DNA of 36,538 nucleotides. Source: Nocardia sp. BSTN01 (GTDB taxonomy: Bacteria; Actinomycetota; Actinomycetes; Mycobacteriales; Mycobacteriaceae). Shown piece after piece: positions 19,323 to 25,551 of the stretch. Position 1 is the first letter of the stretch. Each line of letters begins with the position of its first letter. Both the position numbers and the translations under genes were made by a program. The notes beneath the pieces are model-generated. The model ran no database searches. It was not told the origin of the DNA and was given only the letters and a program-made list of their open reading frames with translations. Where the stretch lies: positions 1 through 36,538 of the forward strand of contig NZ_JADKYP010000063.1 of assembly GCF_015354405.1 (NCBI RefSeq), written 5' to 3'.

Positions 19323-22268
19323 CTACCCCAGCAGAGCGGCCGCGACCTCGGGCGTGAGCAACTCGTAGCCTTCCGCCTCGCGGTTGTAGTACCAGGTGTT
19401 CTCGTTCGGTTCGAGGCGAAGTGCCGACCGCACCGCGTGGGTGGCGGGGCGGAAGCTGGAGCTGCGCGGAATCTCGTCAACCACCTGCACGACATCGGGT
19501 CGCTGGGCGTGGTCGAGGGCGCGCAGGCCCTCGGTGACGTCGGCGGGTTCCAGGCGGTGGCCCGCGCGCACGCTCACCACGGCCACCGCGAGCGTGGTGC
19601 TCGGGGTGCGGCGGCCGAACGCGACCTCCATGTCGACGGCCGCGATGTCGTTGAGCGCGTCCACGATCGGCTGGGTGTAGACCGGCCCGCGCGCGGTGGC
19701 GATGACGGTGTCGCGGCGGTCCATCAGCCAGTAGTCGCCGTCGCTGTCGCGGCGGAACAGATTCTCCGTCGGCATCCAGGCGTCACCGGCGCTGAAGACC
19801 CCGCGCAGGCCGCCGCGGGAGATGTCGACGGTGTCGGCGGCCCGCCCGATCAGCAGGCCCACCTCGTTGTCGGCGGCGCGGCGAGCGAAACCTCTTGTGT
19901 CGGTGACGATCTGCTCGGCGATCGGATCGTAGGAGATCAGTTCCACCTTCGCCGTGCCCGGCACCGGGCGGCCCTTGCAGCCGATCTTCACGCCCGCCAC
20001 GTTCGCGAGCACCACATCTCCCTCGATGGAGGCGTAGAACTCCAACACCCGCGCGGGGGCGAACCGTTCCGTGGTGCGCCGCCACAACCCGGCCGGTATA
20101 CCGGAGCCGATGAACAGCCGGATCGGATGCGAATGGCCGGCGGGGAAGGTGTCGGCGTCGAGGATGTCGCGCAGCATGGTCCAGGTGTAGGTGACCACGG
20201 TGACCCCGTAGCGGTGCACCTCCGCGGCGAAGCTGGGCGGATCCAGCGACCGGGCCAGCGCGATCCGGCTGCCACCGGCCACCGCGCCACCCAGACTCAC
20301 CAGCAGTCCCGACGAATGATGCAGCGGCGCAAGGCAATACACCGTATCGCGGCGGTCGAGATCGGCCGCCGATGCGGTGCCGAAGGCCGACAGCGCCCAC
20401 CGGTGGTTGGTGATGTATTTCAGGTCGAGTTTGTCGCCGGTGCCGGTGACCAGGATGAACGCCAGCTCGCGCGCCACCCCCGGATCGGGGCGGAACCAGC
20501 CCGGCAGCGCCACCGCCGCCGGGTCGACCTGCTCCAGGTCGACCACATCGGCGCCGTCCGGAATGTCGAGTGTGCGGGCATTGCCGCCCCCGAGCACCAG
20601 GACCCGGGTTCCGGCGGCGGCCGCGGTCCGCAGATTCTCCGGATCGGCCACGATCACCGTGGTTCCGGTCGATTCGACCGCCCGCGCGGTATCGCCGCCG
20701 GGCGCCAGCAACACCGCGACCGCCCCGATCCGCGAGAGCGCCGCGACCGAGGCCAGCGCACTCGGGCGGGTTTCCATCAGCACCCCGACGCGGGTGCCGG
20801 GGCGTACGCCCGCCGAGATCAGCCCGCGCACCACATTGTCGATGCGGGCGCCGACCGCGGCGTGGGTGTGTACCCGGTCGTCGAAGAGGAACAACTCCCG
20901 CATCGGCGCGCTGCGCTGTTGTTCGGCGAGCAAGCGGCCCAGCGAGATCCGGGTGTGCGACTGGATCATGCCGAGCCGGGTCAGCCGGGGCAGCGCCCGG
21001 GCCGCCTCCCCCGTCAGCTCCTTCGATCCGCGCAGCGCGTTTCCGGCCAGGCTGCCGAACGCCGCGCCGATTCCCGCGCCGGCCTCGGCCAGGGTGGCCG
21101 CGGTGTGCACGACCCGGGTGGCGGCGGTGGCCTGGCGGTCGGCGGCCACGTGCTCGTGCATGGGCGCGATCTGTTCGGGCAGTTCGGCGTGCCCGCCCAG
21201 CCAGTTCACCCAGTCGCGCACCAGCGGCCAGGTCTGGTTGGTGGCGGTACTGCCCGCCACCAGGCCGAAATGCCCCGCCACCAGTGTGGCCTCGTAGACC
21301 TCGGCATTGGGCGCCGCGCGCACGATACCGCGCACCGCCGCCGGCTGGCCGATGTCGTCGACCTCGCCGACGAAGGCGAGGATGGGGCATTTGACCTCGG
21401 CCAGCGAGATCGGCTGATCACGAATGACGAAGCCGCCGGACATCATCCGGTTGTGCGCGACGAACTGCTTGAGCAGATCGGCGGCCGCCGGTCCGGAATA
21501 GCCCACCCAGCCGTCATGTTCGAGGAAGCGGCGCTGACGTTCCTTGGGCAGCAACGCCTCCCGGTCGTGCAACTGGCGCAGGAAGTCGATCCGGGCCTTC
21601 GCCGTCTTCACCGGGTCGAGCAACTGGAAGCCGACGCGCACCATGGCATCGGTGATCGGCAGCCGGGTCAGGACGTGGTCGGCGACGAAATCGGCGACCT
21701 CCGACACCAGTCCGTAGGGCAGCCCGAACGGCAGGCCCGCCACGATGTCGACCGGGCTGCCGAAGGTGACGATGCTCTGCACGCCCTTGCCGTAGCGGAA
21801 CGCGGTGGCCTGGTAGGCGAACATGCCGCCCTGCGAGTACCCCATCAGGTGGACCCCGCGGCCGGTCAGTTCGTTGACCGTGTCGATCGCGCTCGACAGG
21901 GCGAGGACGTGGTCGGCCAGATCGCGCTGCCAGCCGCCTTCCTCGGTGGCCGGCGAGCCGAAATCCAATACCCAGCAATCGATTCCGGCGCGATGGAGGA
22001 TACCGACCGCGCCGCCCTCGGCATTGACGTCGTAGATGTCGGCGTTGACCATCAGCGGCGGCACCAGCAGCGCGACGGGCCGGTCCGCGGCCGGATCGTC
22101 GGGGAAGTAGTGGCGCAGCCGGTACATCCGCTTGCGCTCGGTGACCTCGAAGGGCGAGGACTCCACGTCGTGGGCGAGGCCGCCGAAACGGATGACCTCG
22201 AGACCGTTCTGCGCGGTCGCCATCAACCGTCGCGCCGGCCCCGTCAGGGTTCTCGTATCGAACTTCAC
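19323..22268 (-). CDS. bifunctional alpha/beta hydrolase (PhaC-like) and acyl-CoA synthetase-like protein
   Basis: A ~981-residue two-domain protein comparable to M. tuberculosis Rv1683. Residues ~1-370 are a PhaC-like alpha/beta hydrolase with nucleophile motif GYSQGG near 145, acid FVGEVDDIG near 300 and VAGHFGLVAGS carrying the His near 333. The nucleophile is Ser, not the Cys of polyhydroxyalkanoate synthases, which favours hydrolase or lipase activity. Residues ~430-980 are an AMP-binding fold (EFYASIEGDVV near 720, DYWLMDRRDT near 845). The canonical STGTTGxPK-type loop is replaced by ILVTGTGDKLDLKYITN, so ligase activity needs testing. The start is the GTG at 22268, with GGGAG five bases upstream; a GTG at 22274 is possible. 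A role in acylglycerol turnover is likely. Confidence 0.85.
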   Translation of the reverse strand: MKFDTRTLTGPARRLMATAQNGLEVIRFGGLAHDVESSPFEVTERKRMYRLRHYFPDDPAADRPVALLVPPLMVNADIYDVNAEGGAVGILHRAGIDCWVLDFGSPATEEGGWQRDLADHVLALSSAIDTVNELTGRGVHLMGYSQGGMFAYQATAFRYGKGVQSIVTFGSPVDIVAGLPFGLPYGLVSEVADFVADHVLTRLPITDAMVRVGFQLLDPVKTAKARIDFLRQLHDREALLPKERQRRFLEHDGWVGYSGPAAADLLKQFVAHNRMMSGGFVIRDQPISLAEVKCPILAFVGEVDDIGQPAAVRGIVRAAPNAEVYEATLVAGHFGLVAGSTATNQTWPLVRDWVNWLGGHAELPEQIAPMHEHVAADRQATAATRVVHTAATLAEAGAGIGAAFGSLAGNALRGSKELTGEAARALPRLTRLGMIQSHTRISLGRLLAEQQRSAPMRELFLFDDRVHTHAAVGARIDNVVRGLISAGVRPGTRVGVLMETRPSALASVAALSRIGAVAVLLAPGGDTARAVESTGTTVIVADPENLRTAAAAGTRVLVLGGGNARTLDIPDGADVVDLEQVDPAAVALPGWFRPDPGVARELAFILVTGTGDKLDLKYITNHRWALSAFGTASAADLDRRDTVYCLAPLHHSSGLLVSLGGAVAGGSRIALARSLDPPSFAAEVHRYGVTVVTYTWTMLRDILDADTFPAGHSHPIRLFIGSGIPAGLWRRTTERFAPARVLEFYASIEGDVVLANVAGVKIGCKGRPVPGTAKVELISYDPIAEQIVTDTRGFARRAADNEVGLLIGRAADTVDISRGGLRGVFSAGDAWMPTENLFRRDSDGDYWLMDRRDTVIATARGPVYTQPIVDALNDIAAVDMEVAFGRRTPSTTLAVAVVSVRAGHRLEPADVTEGLRALDHAQRPDVVQVVDEIPRSSSFRPATHAVRSALRLEPNENTWYYNREAEGYELLTPEVAAALLG

Positions 22269-22361
22269 AACCACTCCCAGCCCTTGTGCCCTGCGCTCAC
22301 ACCTTCACGCCCCCTGCGTGCGGGTCGAGCCTGCCACATCGACAGCCTACTGCGGCCCCGT

Positions 22362-22387: not shown

Positions 22388-22562
22388 GGTTGCGCACGGA
22401 CGGGGTGCGGGCGCGGCCGCCGGCACAGAGTTTTCGCGAATACGGTCGCGCGGCACCGGCTGTGCCCTACGATGGATCACGGAAGCCGTTGTAGCGCATG
22501 ACTATTCGATCAGATGTCTAGTTCGCCAGGCCAGTCCCGACTCCCATTCTCCGCAGGTGGCA

Positions 22563-22584: not shown

Positions 22585-22664
22585 GTGTCCGCGTGTTCGC
22601 GTGCCGACGACAGTGTTCGGCGCTGTCCGCATCCATCGCCAACCCCCCGAGGTGAGGACCGCAG

Positions 22665-22811
22665 ATGACCCTCGAACTTCCCGACCGGACCGACAATCAC
22701 GACCGCAAATCCCTGTCCACCGCCGCCGCCCATCAATTGGCCCACACCACCAAATCCGAACCCCAGATGCACGATATCGGCCCGTCACCGGTGGCCGGTC
22801 GGCCGCGGTGA
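22665..22811 (+). pseudogene. N-terminal remnant of a family 2B encapsulin shell protein
   Basis: The ATG at 22665 has a strong ribosome binding site (AGGTGAGGA). The frame runs 48 codons. Its segment SLSTAAAHQLAHTTKSEPQM followed by HDIGP matches the start of family 2B (cyclic-nucleotide-domain) encapsulins, which read SLxTAAAxxLATTTKxxPQMxxI and continue with xRWLLRxLPWV. Here that continuation is missing after DIGP, and the frame ends at a TGA overlapping the methyltransferase remnant. A full protein is about 450-480 residues, so over 90% is lost. The match is from family knowledge and was not searched. Confidence 0.72.
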
Positions 22812-23050
22812 GCTGGATCGACGCCCACTACGGGTGCATGATCCATCCGCGCGGCGAGTATTTCCGGGCGATGACGGCCCACGGCCTGGTCCCTATCGCG
22901 GTCACCGACCTGACCTCCGCGACCATCCCGTACTGGGAACTTCGTACGCGGTGCGAGCTGGCGACCGGGGTGGAGGAACCGTTTCTCACGTCCTATCGCG
23001 AGGGCAGTTTCCAGTACCTGGTCATAGCCGCCGATAAGGTAGGACGGTGA
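22808..23050 (+). pseudogene. C-terminal remnant of geranyl-diphosphate 2-C-methyltransferase
   Basis: Eighty codons from a GTG at 22808 (overlapping the encapsulin remnant's TGA) encode VSWIDAHYGC, then PRGEYFRAM, VTDLT, IPYWELRT, LATGVEE and SFQYLVIAADKV. This follows, without gaps, the last ~80 residues of the streptomycete enzyme that C-methylates geranyl diphosphate for 2-methylisoborneol (VSxINAH..., PYWELRA, LVTGIE, SFQYVLIAADRV). The first ~210 residues, including the SAM-binding site, are missing, so no activity is expected. Family-like residues may begin slightly upstream (GRSAAV), placing the junction at about 22780-22800. Its stop overlaps the idi start. Confidence 0.75.
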
Positions 23051-23610
23051 CCGGCACCCACACCACCTCCACCGACAGCACGGTCGACCGCGAGTCCCTG
23101 CCCGTCGAACTGGTCGACGAGCAGGGCCGCGCGACCGGAATCTGCCCGGTGTCCGACGCCCACACCGCGCCCGGACGGCTGCACCGCGCGTTCTCGGTGC
23201 TGCTGTTCGGGCCGGACGGGCGGGTGCTGCTGCAGCAGCGGGCCGCGGTCAAGACCCGGTTCCCGCTGCGCTGGTCCAACACCTGCTGCGGACACCCGGG
23301 GCCGGGCCAGTCCCTCGCCGAGGCCGCCGCTGTCCGGCTGGGCGAGGAACTGCGGATCGGCGCGGAACTGCGTGAGGTCGGGGTCTATCGCTACCGGGCC
23401 GACGATCCCGCGACCGGGCGGGTCGAGGACGAATGGGATCACGTACTGATCGGCGAGTTCACCGGCGTGCCCGAACATCCCGACCCGGCGGAAGTAGCCG
23501 CGCTGCGCTGGGCGGATCCCGATCGGCTCGACGCCGATATCGCTTGCGCCCCAGCGGATTTCACGCCGTGGCTGCACGGTGTGCTGGCCACGGCGCGCAC
23601 CGGCCGCTGA
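23047..23610 (+). CDS. idi: isopentenyl-diphosphate delta-isomerase, type 1
   Basis: Interconverts isopentenyl and dimethylallyl diphosphate, supplying the starter for isoprenoid chains. The Nudix-like fold shows RLHRAFSVLLF near residue 44, the catalytic Cys81 in NTCCGHP, and the EDEWDHVL segment with the acidic residue near 136. At 187 residues it is the usual length. The GTG start overlaps the methyltransferase remnant's TGA (GTGA) and has AGGTAGGA upstream. It therefore sits as the last gene of the decayed terpene operon, where it would have provided dimethylallyl diphosphate for geranyl diphosphate synthesis. It appears intact and may be kept because it serves general isoprenoid synthesis. 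It converges on hmp with six bases between the stops. Confidence 0.94.
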   Translation: MTGTHTTSTDSTVDRESLPVELVDEQGRATGICPVSDAHTAPGRLHRAFSVLLFGPDGRVLLQQRAAVKTRFPLRWSNTCCGHPGPGQSLAEAAAVRLGEELRIGAELREVGVYRYRADDPATGRVEDEWDHVLIGEFTGVPEHPDPAEVAALRWADPDRLDADIACAPADFTPWLHGVLATARTGR

Positions 23611-23616
23611 ACCGGC

Positions 23617-24852
23617 TCACAGATCCAGCAACCAGTCGTTGGGGGCGAACAGTTCGAAGTGGACCCGCTCGTCGGCCACACCGGCGGCTTTCAGCTGCGC
23701 CCGTGCCGCCTGCAGGAAGCCGGTGCCACCGCACAGGTAGATCTCGGCGTCCGCGGGCAGCTCGATGCCGGTCAGCGACAGCAGGCCCGCGTGCGTGCCG
23801 GCACTGAGCTCCTCGTACCAGACGTGCAGCTCGGCCTCGGGCAGACCGGCGACCAGATCGGCCTGGGTACCGCGCAGCGGATGCGTGGCCTCGGCCCGGT
23901 CCGCGTGCAACGCCAGCACCCGGCGCGGCGATCCGGTGGCCGCGAGATATTCCAGGATTCCGACCATCGGGGTGACGCCGATGCCGGCCGAGATGAGCAC
24001 CAGCGGTGTCCGCGCGGCGGTGTCGATGGTCAGATCGCCGAACGGCAGGGTGATCTGCAGCCGGTCGCCCACCTCGACATCGGTGTGCAGCCATGACGAG
24101 ACCTCGCCCTCGGGCCGGTCGCCGACGGCGGTGACACGACGCACCGCGAAGGCCAGCCGGCCCGCGCCGGGCGCGTTGACGAGGCTGTACTGGCGCAGCT
24201 GGCGGGCGCCGTCGGGCAGGTCTGCGCCGACCGAAACATATTGTCCGGGAACGAATTCGGGAAGCGGCGCCGCCGTGTCGGCGGATTCCACGACGAAGGT
24301 GACGGTGTCGGCGGAATCCTCGATGCGCCGCACCACCCGGACCTCACGGAAGACCGCGCCCGGTTCGACTCCCGCGCCGGAGTACAGCTCGTTCTCGAAT
24401 CCCATCAGGGTGTCGGCCATCAGCCAGTAGACCCGGTCCCACGCGGCCGCCACCTCGGCGGTGACGGCCTCGCCCAGCACGTGCGCGATCGCCGCGAACA
24501 GATGCTCGTGCACGACCGGATACTGGTCGGGCACCACCCCGAGCGAGGCGTGCTTGTGGCCGATGCGGGCCAGCAGTTGGCGCGGATGCGGCAGGGCCGG
24601 ATCGACGAGGTGGGTGGCGAATGTGGCGATCGAGGCGGCCAGCGCGCGCTGCTGCTCCCCCTGGGCCTGATTGCCGCGATTGAACACGTTGCGCAGCAGA
24701 TCGGGGTGTGCGGCGAAGAGGCGGCGATAGAACTCGGCGGTGATGTCGTCGATCCGCGCCCCGATCACCGGCAGGGTCGCCCGCACGATCTCGGCGTGGT
24801 GTGGTTCCAGTTCGGCGATGGTGTCCAGGGCCGATGTCGACGCGGTCGTCAT
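23617..24852 (-). CDS. hmp: flavohaemoprotein (nitric oxide dioxygenase)
   Basis: Detoxifies NO to nitrate using O2 and NAD(P)H. The globin domain spans about residues 1-140 with the proximal His in RIGHKHASLGV near 85. The FAD-binding barrel carries RQYSLVNAPG near 205, and the NAD domain has SAGIGVTPMVG near 270 and the YLCGGTGFL motif near 372. The ATG at 24852 is preceded by AGAGGAG at good spacing. 411 residues is typical. nsrR lies 216 bases upstream on the same strand, and a 15-bp palindrome lies 28-42 bases before the ATG. Induction by NO through NsrR is the natural reading. Confidence 0.95.
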   Translation of the reverse strand: MTTASTSALDTIAELEPHHAEIVRATLPVIGARIDDITAEFYRRLFAAHPDLLRNVFNRGNQAQGEQQRALAASIATFATHLVDPALPHPRQLLARIGHKHASLGVVPDQYPVVHEHLFAAIAHVLGEAVTAEVAAAWDRVYWLMADTLMGFENELYSGAGVEPGAVFREVRVVRRIEDSADTVTFVVESADTAAPLPEFVPGQYVSVGADLPDGARQLRQYSLVNAPGAGRLAFAVRRVTAVGDRPEGEVSSWLHTDVEVGDRLQITLPFGDLTIDTAARTPLVLISAGIGVTPMVGILEYLAATGSPRRVLALHADRAEATHPLRGTQADLVAGLPEAELHVWYEELSAGTHAGLLSLTGIELPADAEIYLCGGTGFLQAARAQLKAAGVADERVHFELFAPNDWLLDL

Positions 24853-24879
24853 GATGAAACTCCTCTTCGAGCAACAATT

Positions 24880-24894
24880 CCGGTGAATCACCGG
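24880..24894. promoter_or_regulatory. palindrome in the hmp upstream region, possible operator
   Basis: CCGGTGA-A-TCACCGG is a perfect 7-bp inverted repeat about one helical turn upstream of the hmp ribosome binding site. Its position fits a repressor site, but it does not match the AT-rich NsrR consensus I know from proteobacteria. It could equally be a leader hairpin. Confidence 0.35.
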
Positions 24895-25013
24895 ACGAAT
24901 TCCACGGTAACCATTTCCGGGGTTTCGAATCCAATTCCGAGGCCGTGTGTTCAATTACGGCACGGAATGCGGATTATGTTGTCCACGCCACATTTTCGTC
25001 CCGATACAGAGAT

Positions 25014-25051
25014 ATGCGCTGTGACGCCGAAGATGTTGGTGCACAGCGCAT
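25014..25051. terminator. 10-bp inverted repeat downstream of nsrR
   Basis: ATGCGCTGTG (25014-25023) and CACAGCGCAT (25042-25051) are exact complements around an 18-base loop, 18 bases past the nsrR stop. It may be a terminator for nsrR or a control site between nsrR and hmp. The loop is large for an intrinsic terminator. Confidence 0.35.
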
Positions 25052-25068
25052 TACGAAGAGGCAAGAAG

Positions 25069-25551
25069 TCAGGACACGGCGGGGACATCGACCGCGAAAC
25101 CGCCGAACGGCAATGCCGGCGAGGCCGAAAGATGCAGTAATTGCTGCGTCCGCCGATCGACCAGATCACTGAGGGTATAGCGGTCGAGTTCGCGATAGAA
25201 CGACTCCTGCGCCTCGGCCAGGATCCGCCGCAGGCGACACGCCCCGGCCATCGGGCAGGGATGGTCGCCCACGCAGTCGACCACCTCGGCCGCGCCTTCG
25301 AGGCCGCGCACGATCTGCCCGACGGTGGCGGTGCGACCGGCGTCGGTGAGGAAGATGCCGCCGGCGCGACCCCGCTGCGATGCCACCAGCCCCAGTTCGG
25401 ACAGTTTGGTGACGGCCTTGGCGACGTAGTGTTCGGAGGCGTTGACCTGCCGGGCGATCAGCTTCGCGGTCACGCGCTCCTCGGCGCCGCTGCTCACCGC
25501 GAGCCGCATCATCGCCCGCAGCCCCAGATCGGTGAATCGCGACAACTGCAT
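25069..25551 (-). CDS. nsrR: Rrf2-family NO-sensing repressor
   Basis: A 160-residue Rrf2 regulator. The N-terminal winged helix (MQLSRFTDLGLRAMMRLA, then TAKLIARQVNASEHYVAKAV) is followed by the wing RGRAGGIFL. Three cysteines, C93, C99 and C105 (DCVGDHPCPMAGAC), match the iron-sulphur cluster ligands of NsrR. NO damages the cluster and releases DNA. It lies directly upstream of hmp on the same strand, the standard NsrR target. It is called NsrR rather than IscR because of the hmp context and because the sequence around the cysteines resembles NsrR. Confidence 0.9.
   Translation of the reverse strand: MQLSRFTDLGLRAMMRLAVSSGAEERVTAKLIARQVNASEHYVAKAVTKLSELGLVASQRGRAGGIFLTDAGRTATVGQIVRGLEGAAEVVDCVGDHPCPMAGACRLRRILAEAQESFYRELDRYTLSDLVDRRTQQLLHLSASPALPFGGFAVDVPAVS

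Follow-up and report, generated by a model that had tools for sequence, protein, structure and literature searches.

Remnant of an encapsulin and 2-methylisoborneol operon before an intact idi gene in Nocardia sp. BSTN01, with a predicted idi promoter inside the lost methyltransferase gene

In Nocardia sp. BSTN01, an intact idi gene, coding for a type I isopentenyl-diphosphate (IPP) isomerase, follows two short open reading frames that each resemble one end of a longer gene. This arrangement raises the question of what once stood before idi and how idi has outlasted it. The window refers here to the whole stretch of DNA analyzed (36,538 nucleotides), and its features around idi are listed below.

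19326..22274, minus strand: left flank gene, divergent, coding for a 983-aa AMP-binding/hydrolase-type protein (PF00501, E 3.1e-27)
22468..22473, plus strand: TACGAT, candidate -10 box of the old operon promoter (prediction, TANNNT scan of the leader)
22649..22657, plus strand: Shine-Dalgarno-like GAGGTGAGG of the encapsulin gene (read in the sequence)
22665..22771, plus strand: 5' remnant of a family 2B encapsulin gene, first ~36 codons (NF041163, E 6.3e-5; alignment to the intact gene)
22772..22782, plus strand: junction filler of 11 bases, matching neither deletion partner
22783..23050, plus strand: 3' remnant of gppmt (geranyl-diphosphate 2-C-methyltransferase), ~88 codons (NF041943, E 1.5e-36)
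23035..23040, plus strand: TAAGGT, predicted -10 box of an idi promoter, within gppmt codons Asp-Lys-Val (conservation, codon control)
23041..23046, plus strand: 6-nt spacer from the -10 box to the start codon; the predicted +1 is the first base of idi
23047..23610, plus strand: idi, type I IPP isomerase, 187 aa, intact (NF002995, E 1.5e-53)
23620..24954, minus strand: right flank gene, flavohaemoglobin-like, convergent with idi (Pfam globin, E 6.8e-13; NAD_binding_1, E 4.6e-5)

The operon remnant in the window

The frame that opens at the encapsulin start codon has 48 residues (22665-22811) and runs to the TGA at 22809-22811. Its residues 16-40 match positions 1-25 of the family 2B encapsulin profile NF041163, and the intact N. 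kruczakiae encapsulin begins with a stretch 89% identical to residues 1-38. The first-pass annotation had read this frame as an encapsulin start behind a strong ribosome binding site, and both readings agree with these matches and with the Shine-Dalgarno-like motif. It had also assigned the next frame, of 80 residues, to the C-terminus of gppmt. The family was right and the extent was too short by about 10 residues: the frame itself matches the last 77 positions of NF041943 as well as the solved enzymes 4f84 (E 2.2e-26) and 3vc1 (E 3.6e-25), and protein-level homology covers residues 201-290 of the N. kruczakiae enzyme with 97% identity. At the base level, identity to encapsulin ends at 22771 and identity to gppmt begins at 22783. 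The stop codon of the gppmt remnant (TGA, 23048-23050) overlaps idi, and the two short frames and idi are chained by GTGA overlaps. As annotated at first, idi is intact; it scored 181.2 bits against NF002995 (cut-off 127) and 107.8 against TIGR02150 (cut-off 105.8), which places it in type I. A second TANNNT was found in the leader, at 22441.

A 2-methylisoborneol (2-MIB)-type terpene cyclase is absent between the encapsulin and gppmt remnants, and none was matched in the genome at E <= 1e-30. Encapsulin likewise had no other match in the genome at that threshold, and the gppmt end had none elsewhere at E <= 1e-3. The locus is thus the remnant of a family 2B encapsulin-2-MIB operon and not a working member of this group, with only ~36 and ~88 codons of the two genes left. 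The left flank gene marks the site, being on the same side in 141 of 146 Nocardia rows (it was not found in L033, L075, L078, L094, and L115). On the right, a gene for an Rrf2-family regulator adjoins the flavohaemoglobin-like gene (23620-25551, minus strand), and we take these two genes to be a likely nitric-oxide response pair. A plasmid search with a piece of the window gave no match.

Of 80 named loci retained as matches to the gppmt remnant, 76 were from Nocardia, the nearest being N. kruczakiae, N. africana, and N. cerradoensis. Related Nocardia carry an intact operon at the same site, in the order encapsulin, MIB synthase, gppmt, idi, and we propose that this four-gene operon would be ancestral in the genus. 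The four genes of N. kruczakiae (L031/L112) all scored above cut-off (encapsulin, NF041163, 732.6 bits; 2-MIB-type cyclase, NF041167, 535.5 bits; gppmt, NF041943, 479.5 bits; idi, NF002995, 181.6 bits). By comparison with this operon, a single deletion of ~3.28 kb took most of the three-gene core in the window: the 3,279 bp from -3543 to -265 of N. kruczakiae, counted relative to idi, have given way to 11 bp. The first-pass annotation had proposed one in-operon deletion with idi as its survivor, had expected relatives with the intact operon, and had given encapsulin-MIB synthase-gppmt as the gene order in Streptomyces; the deletion and the relatives were found as described, idi is also kept in other scars, and S. 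noursei (L105) has that order. It had also suggested short repeats at the junction near 22780-22800, where we saw no shared repeat and found the 11-base filler instead. Over 86 codons, the gppmt remnant differs from the N. kruczakiae gene by 8 synonymous changes and 1 non-synonymous change, so the scar looks young. The gppmt remnant of N. aobensis, with 11.5 synonymous and 13.5 non-synonymous changes, appears to be decaying.

A predicted promoter for idi within the end of gppmt

We consider it very likely that the operon core went in one deletion and that idi survived because it could be expressed alone, through its own leaderless promoter inside gppmt. Judging from conservation and geometry, TAAGGT in the last gppmt codons would be the -10 box of this promoter, and transcription would begin on the idi GTG, give or take a base, and yield a leaderless mRNA. 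As described in the available portions of two studies, leaderless actinobacterial genes have TANNNT ~12 nt before the start codon, often after CGN (Cortes 2013, PMC3898074; Zheng 2011, PMC3160421). The window shares this distance and the preceding CGN (CGATAAGGT). It differs from the leaderless promoters described in those portions in that the predicted idi box lies within the coding end of the upstream gene and outlasts the repeated deletion of that gene.

The loci compared consisted of the operon-less ones and a set of operon-bearing ones, and represent part of the 144 idi-bearing Nocardia genomes; L081 was left out as a duplicate of L114. Of 124 distinct loci, 121 had a TANNNT that ended 6-7 nt ahead of the idi start codon; the loci are related by descent, so these do not amount to 121 independent trials. 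At the same distance, the background in these loci was 74 of 51,861 ATG/GTG (0.14%, idi starts left out). In 33 of the 124 rows there was a choice of start codons (up to five), and the one preceded by the box was used; the core-less rows that offered no such choice all had the box (26/26). All 50 rows with a lost or truncated core carried TANNNT, including 42 without a tblastn match to gppmt (L034, with a truncated gppmt, was counted among the operon-bearing rows). The fourth base was G in 50/50 and the third and fifth varied; the first, second and sixth bases (T, A, T) are set by the search pattern, which leaves only the third to fifth free. Each scar examined still has, right before idi, bases that can be read as the gppmt end or its -10 box. 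The predicted box therefore has the geometry of a leaderless gene, that is, a conserved TANNNT with 6-7 nt to the start codon, and idi probably has its own promoter inside gppmt. Such a promoter would make the upstream genes disposable, and gppmt and idi are probably not strictly one regulatory unit in Nocardia. The notion that the useful gene survives would also become testable, as the survivor would own a promoter hidden in the codons of its neighbor.

The box was missing at 6-7 nt in L069, L142, and L220, and in L069 it was not located at all. By eye, L142 and L220 retain the box and a start codon 6 nt downstream, with a short insert that parts both from idi. In all three loci the insert before idi is short and repeat-like. 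By eye, that of L142 and L220 creates a very small reading frame, opening 6 nt past the -10 box and extending as far as the idi start. Among ten other idi genes of the family, two (L171, L176) had TANNNT 6-7 nt before a possible start, suggesting that the promoter may predate the operon.

A codon control was available in gppmt itself, as the box in intact operons corresponds to the codons Asp-Lys-Val. The Asp codon was GAT in 73/73 distinct gppmt genes with idi (86/86 rows, drawn from two sets that overlap in part), and GAT made up 311 of 1,471 of the other Asp codons of these genes. L034 and L122, in which gppmt is truncated, were left out of this count. In Nocardia with the operon core and without an idi match at the site, the codon was GAC in 4/4 distinct genes (6 rows, largely from one clade). 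GAC was also found in three further Nocardia gppmt copies (L104, L106, L107) and, outside the genus, in 32/32 rows ending in Ala-Asp or Val-Asp, with 7 more rows ending otherwise (by eye). The box was missing in 2/2 paralogous Nocardia gppmt-idi loci and in 6/6 gppmt-idi loci outside Nocardia, namely Micromonospora sp. ATCC 39149 (L110) and five g292 genomes. N. mexicana and a N. wallacei strain (L104, L107) have a second gppmt-idi pair, without the -10 box and without encapsulin or MIB synthase in the stretch examined.

We regard it as unlikely that idi depends instead on the remaining operon promoter, the Shine-Dalgarno sequence and translational coupling through the two overlapping short frames. 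Such coupling would fit the retention of the Shine-Dalgarno sequence and start codon in the window, with frames linked to idi by GTGA. It would also fit L129, L130, L131, L193, and L144, where a start left from the operon reads in frame into the gppmt tail and the fused frame stops at the idi GTGA, and L206, where reading from the encapsulin start likewise meets no stop before that GTGA. These fused-frame loci nevertheless fall into only two clades (L131, L144, L193, L206 and L129, L130). Moreover, L113, L120, and L123 have no operon start in the frame that overlaps idi, and the alignable leader of these three loci and L124 stops before the encapsulin start, yet idi is kept in all of them, and with its box in the first three; what the scars examined all share is the -10 box. 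The join between the two short frames, GTGA, is native to gppmt and present in 12 of 13 distinct intact genes, these 13 being the ones in which the motif was located (it was sought in a narrow gppmt stretch and not located in other intact genes). The first-pass annotation had seen this join correctly, but a deletion as its origin was rejected on these grounds. Its further suggestion that the short frames deliver ribosomes to idi stands as far as the GTGA chain is concerned. As the main reason for the survival of idi, delivery was set aside and kept as a rival, since scars without the operon start keep idi, which would not need it given its own conserved leaderless-type -10 box.

The GTGA overlap and the fused short frames of some scars leave translational coupling possible there, and the fused frames may be a kept leader cistron, or nothing. 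With a promoter inside gppmt, the old operon promoter, Shine-Dalgarno sequence and short frames of the window would be leftovers, which may add some read-through transcription. A word of caution is that such scars can pass for short new genes.

The box before idi could also be a Shine-Dalgarno sequence (AAGG) or mere conserved gppmt coding sequence, which we find quite improbable. The operon-bearing loci would allow it, reading TAAGGT (68/71 boxed rows) or TAAAGT (3/71) and encoding conserved residues. Loci with a lost or truncated core also read TAGGGT, TATGGT, TAGGCT, TACGCT, or TAAGCT (32/50 rows), which breaks AAGG in 31 of these 32 rows, and the exception, TAAGCT, breaks AAGGT. The Shine-Dalgarno reading was rejected on these operon-less variants, and the Asp codon, fixed as GAT against codon usage and GAC where idi is absent, also speaks against plain coding conservation.

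More tentatively, an idi promoter in the coding end of gppmt might govern the last codons of this gene, namely the GAT of Asp and perhaps the Lys, where gppmt elsewhere mostly has Arg. It might also insulate idi, turning the shell-and-odour core into a removable cassette that was discarded at least a dozen times, with some scars keeping the operon start as a short translated leader that ends at the idi start.

Recurrent loss of the operon core in Nocardia

The window is one of many such scars. Within 151 Nocardia genomes, the gppmt end was matched in 104 (E <= 1e-3, remnants counted), encapsulin in 109 and MIB synthase in 98 (both at E <= 1e-30, paralogues counted). We built a tree of the left flank gene for 123 loci, of which 72 have full encapsulin and gppmt genes. 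On this tree, the operon state requires at least 12 changes by computation, and 17 operon-less or truncated clades were counted by eye. Rooted with a single, long-branched outgroup row, the tree has its root among the operon-bearing loci, which makes the losses look derived. For the 12 nearest rows alone, parsimony needs only 2 changes if regain is as easy as loss. The breakpoints of close kin differ, which argues against such easy regain: -3729 and -279 in N. aobensis (L114), -3877 and -20 in L113, -3544 and -264 in the window, -909 and -486 in N. africana (L119), -912 and -406 in N. veterana (L122), and several pieces in L116-L118. Taken together, these comparisons indicate that the encapsulin/odour-terpene core has been lost repeatedly in Nocardia. 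They provide a natural series of operon losses, from intact to erased, in one genus, at one site and with a shared survivor. In the L206 scar, the encapsulin sequence appears by eye to reach right to TAAGGT. L132 and L134-L141 keep encapsulin, gppmt, and idi, with MIB synthase alone missing at the site, which leaves a shell and a methyltransferase without a cyclase there.

We consider the reverse history very improbable, namely that the ancestral state lacked the operon, that the core entered in front of a leaderless idi already resident at the site, and that recombination brought back empty alleles. Related idi genes outside Nocardia can indeed stand without the operon, two of the ten with the box as noted above, and N. 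aobensis and the intact N. kruczakiae have nearly identical left flank genes, though the N. aobensis gppmt remnant has decayed. Encapsulin or gppmt remnants in the window and several of its kin refute this history for the window, the root position speaks against it, and many of the more distant operon-less loci read, by eye, like a gppmt end (Ala-Asp-x-Val/Leu) before idi. Finally, the draft state of the assembly (206 contigs) might suggest that the junction is an assembly error, but this is hardly credible, as the junction lies inside a contig and consists of an 11-base filler rather than a repeat, the missing genes have no second copy elsewhere in the genome at the thresholds given above, and similar scars occur in other genomes.

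The need for idi and its place in related operons

Under the preferred reading of a core deletion survived through an internal promoter, selection would keep idi and its predicted -10 box, the probable reason being that the cell often has no other IPP isomerase. An idi match was found in 144 of 151 Nocardia genomes (E <= 1e-20). The genome of the window has one type I match at this threshold and no type II isomerase match over cut-off, making idi the only isomerase recognized. Type II isomerase was found in 6 of the 7 genomes without type I idi vs. 45 of the 144 with it (Fisher p 0.006, kinship ignored; four of the six look like one clade), and the seventh genome (G037) had neither type over thresholds. 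Between N. kruczakiae and twelve other loci (180 codons), the dN/dS of idi was 0.15-0.27, with 0.16 for the window. A type II isomerase takes the place of idi in the idi-less genomes G033, G043, G065, and G097. A Nocardia clade (L096, L098, L100, L101, two of which are repeated as L213 and L214) keeps the operon core with no idi at the site.

The first-pass annotation had also hinted that idi can be part of such operons in mycolata. The intact four-gene operon of Nocardia agrees with this, as does the available text of a survey of family 2B encapsulin/2-MIB operons, in which IPP isomerases and C-methyltransferases are enriched in terpene-cyclase encapsulin operons (Andreas and Giessen, 2021, PMC8346489). 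The operons described there have the same genes, the core of which is deleted in the window, and we saw nothing in that available text on recurrent loss in Nocardia or on an idi promoter inside gppmt. Our literature search, with subscription papers mostly outside its scope, found no report of either. No idi match was found in the stretches examined of S. noursei (L105) and the rows of genus code g34. Outside Nocardia, Micromonospora sp. ATCC 39149 and the five g292 genomes (L229-L233) have idi after gppmt. The idi genes of these operons belong to two separate parts of the idi tree, which hints at two recruitments, so idi may have joined such operons more than once rather than always stemming from one ancient four-gene operon.
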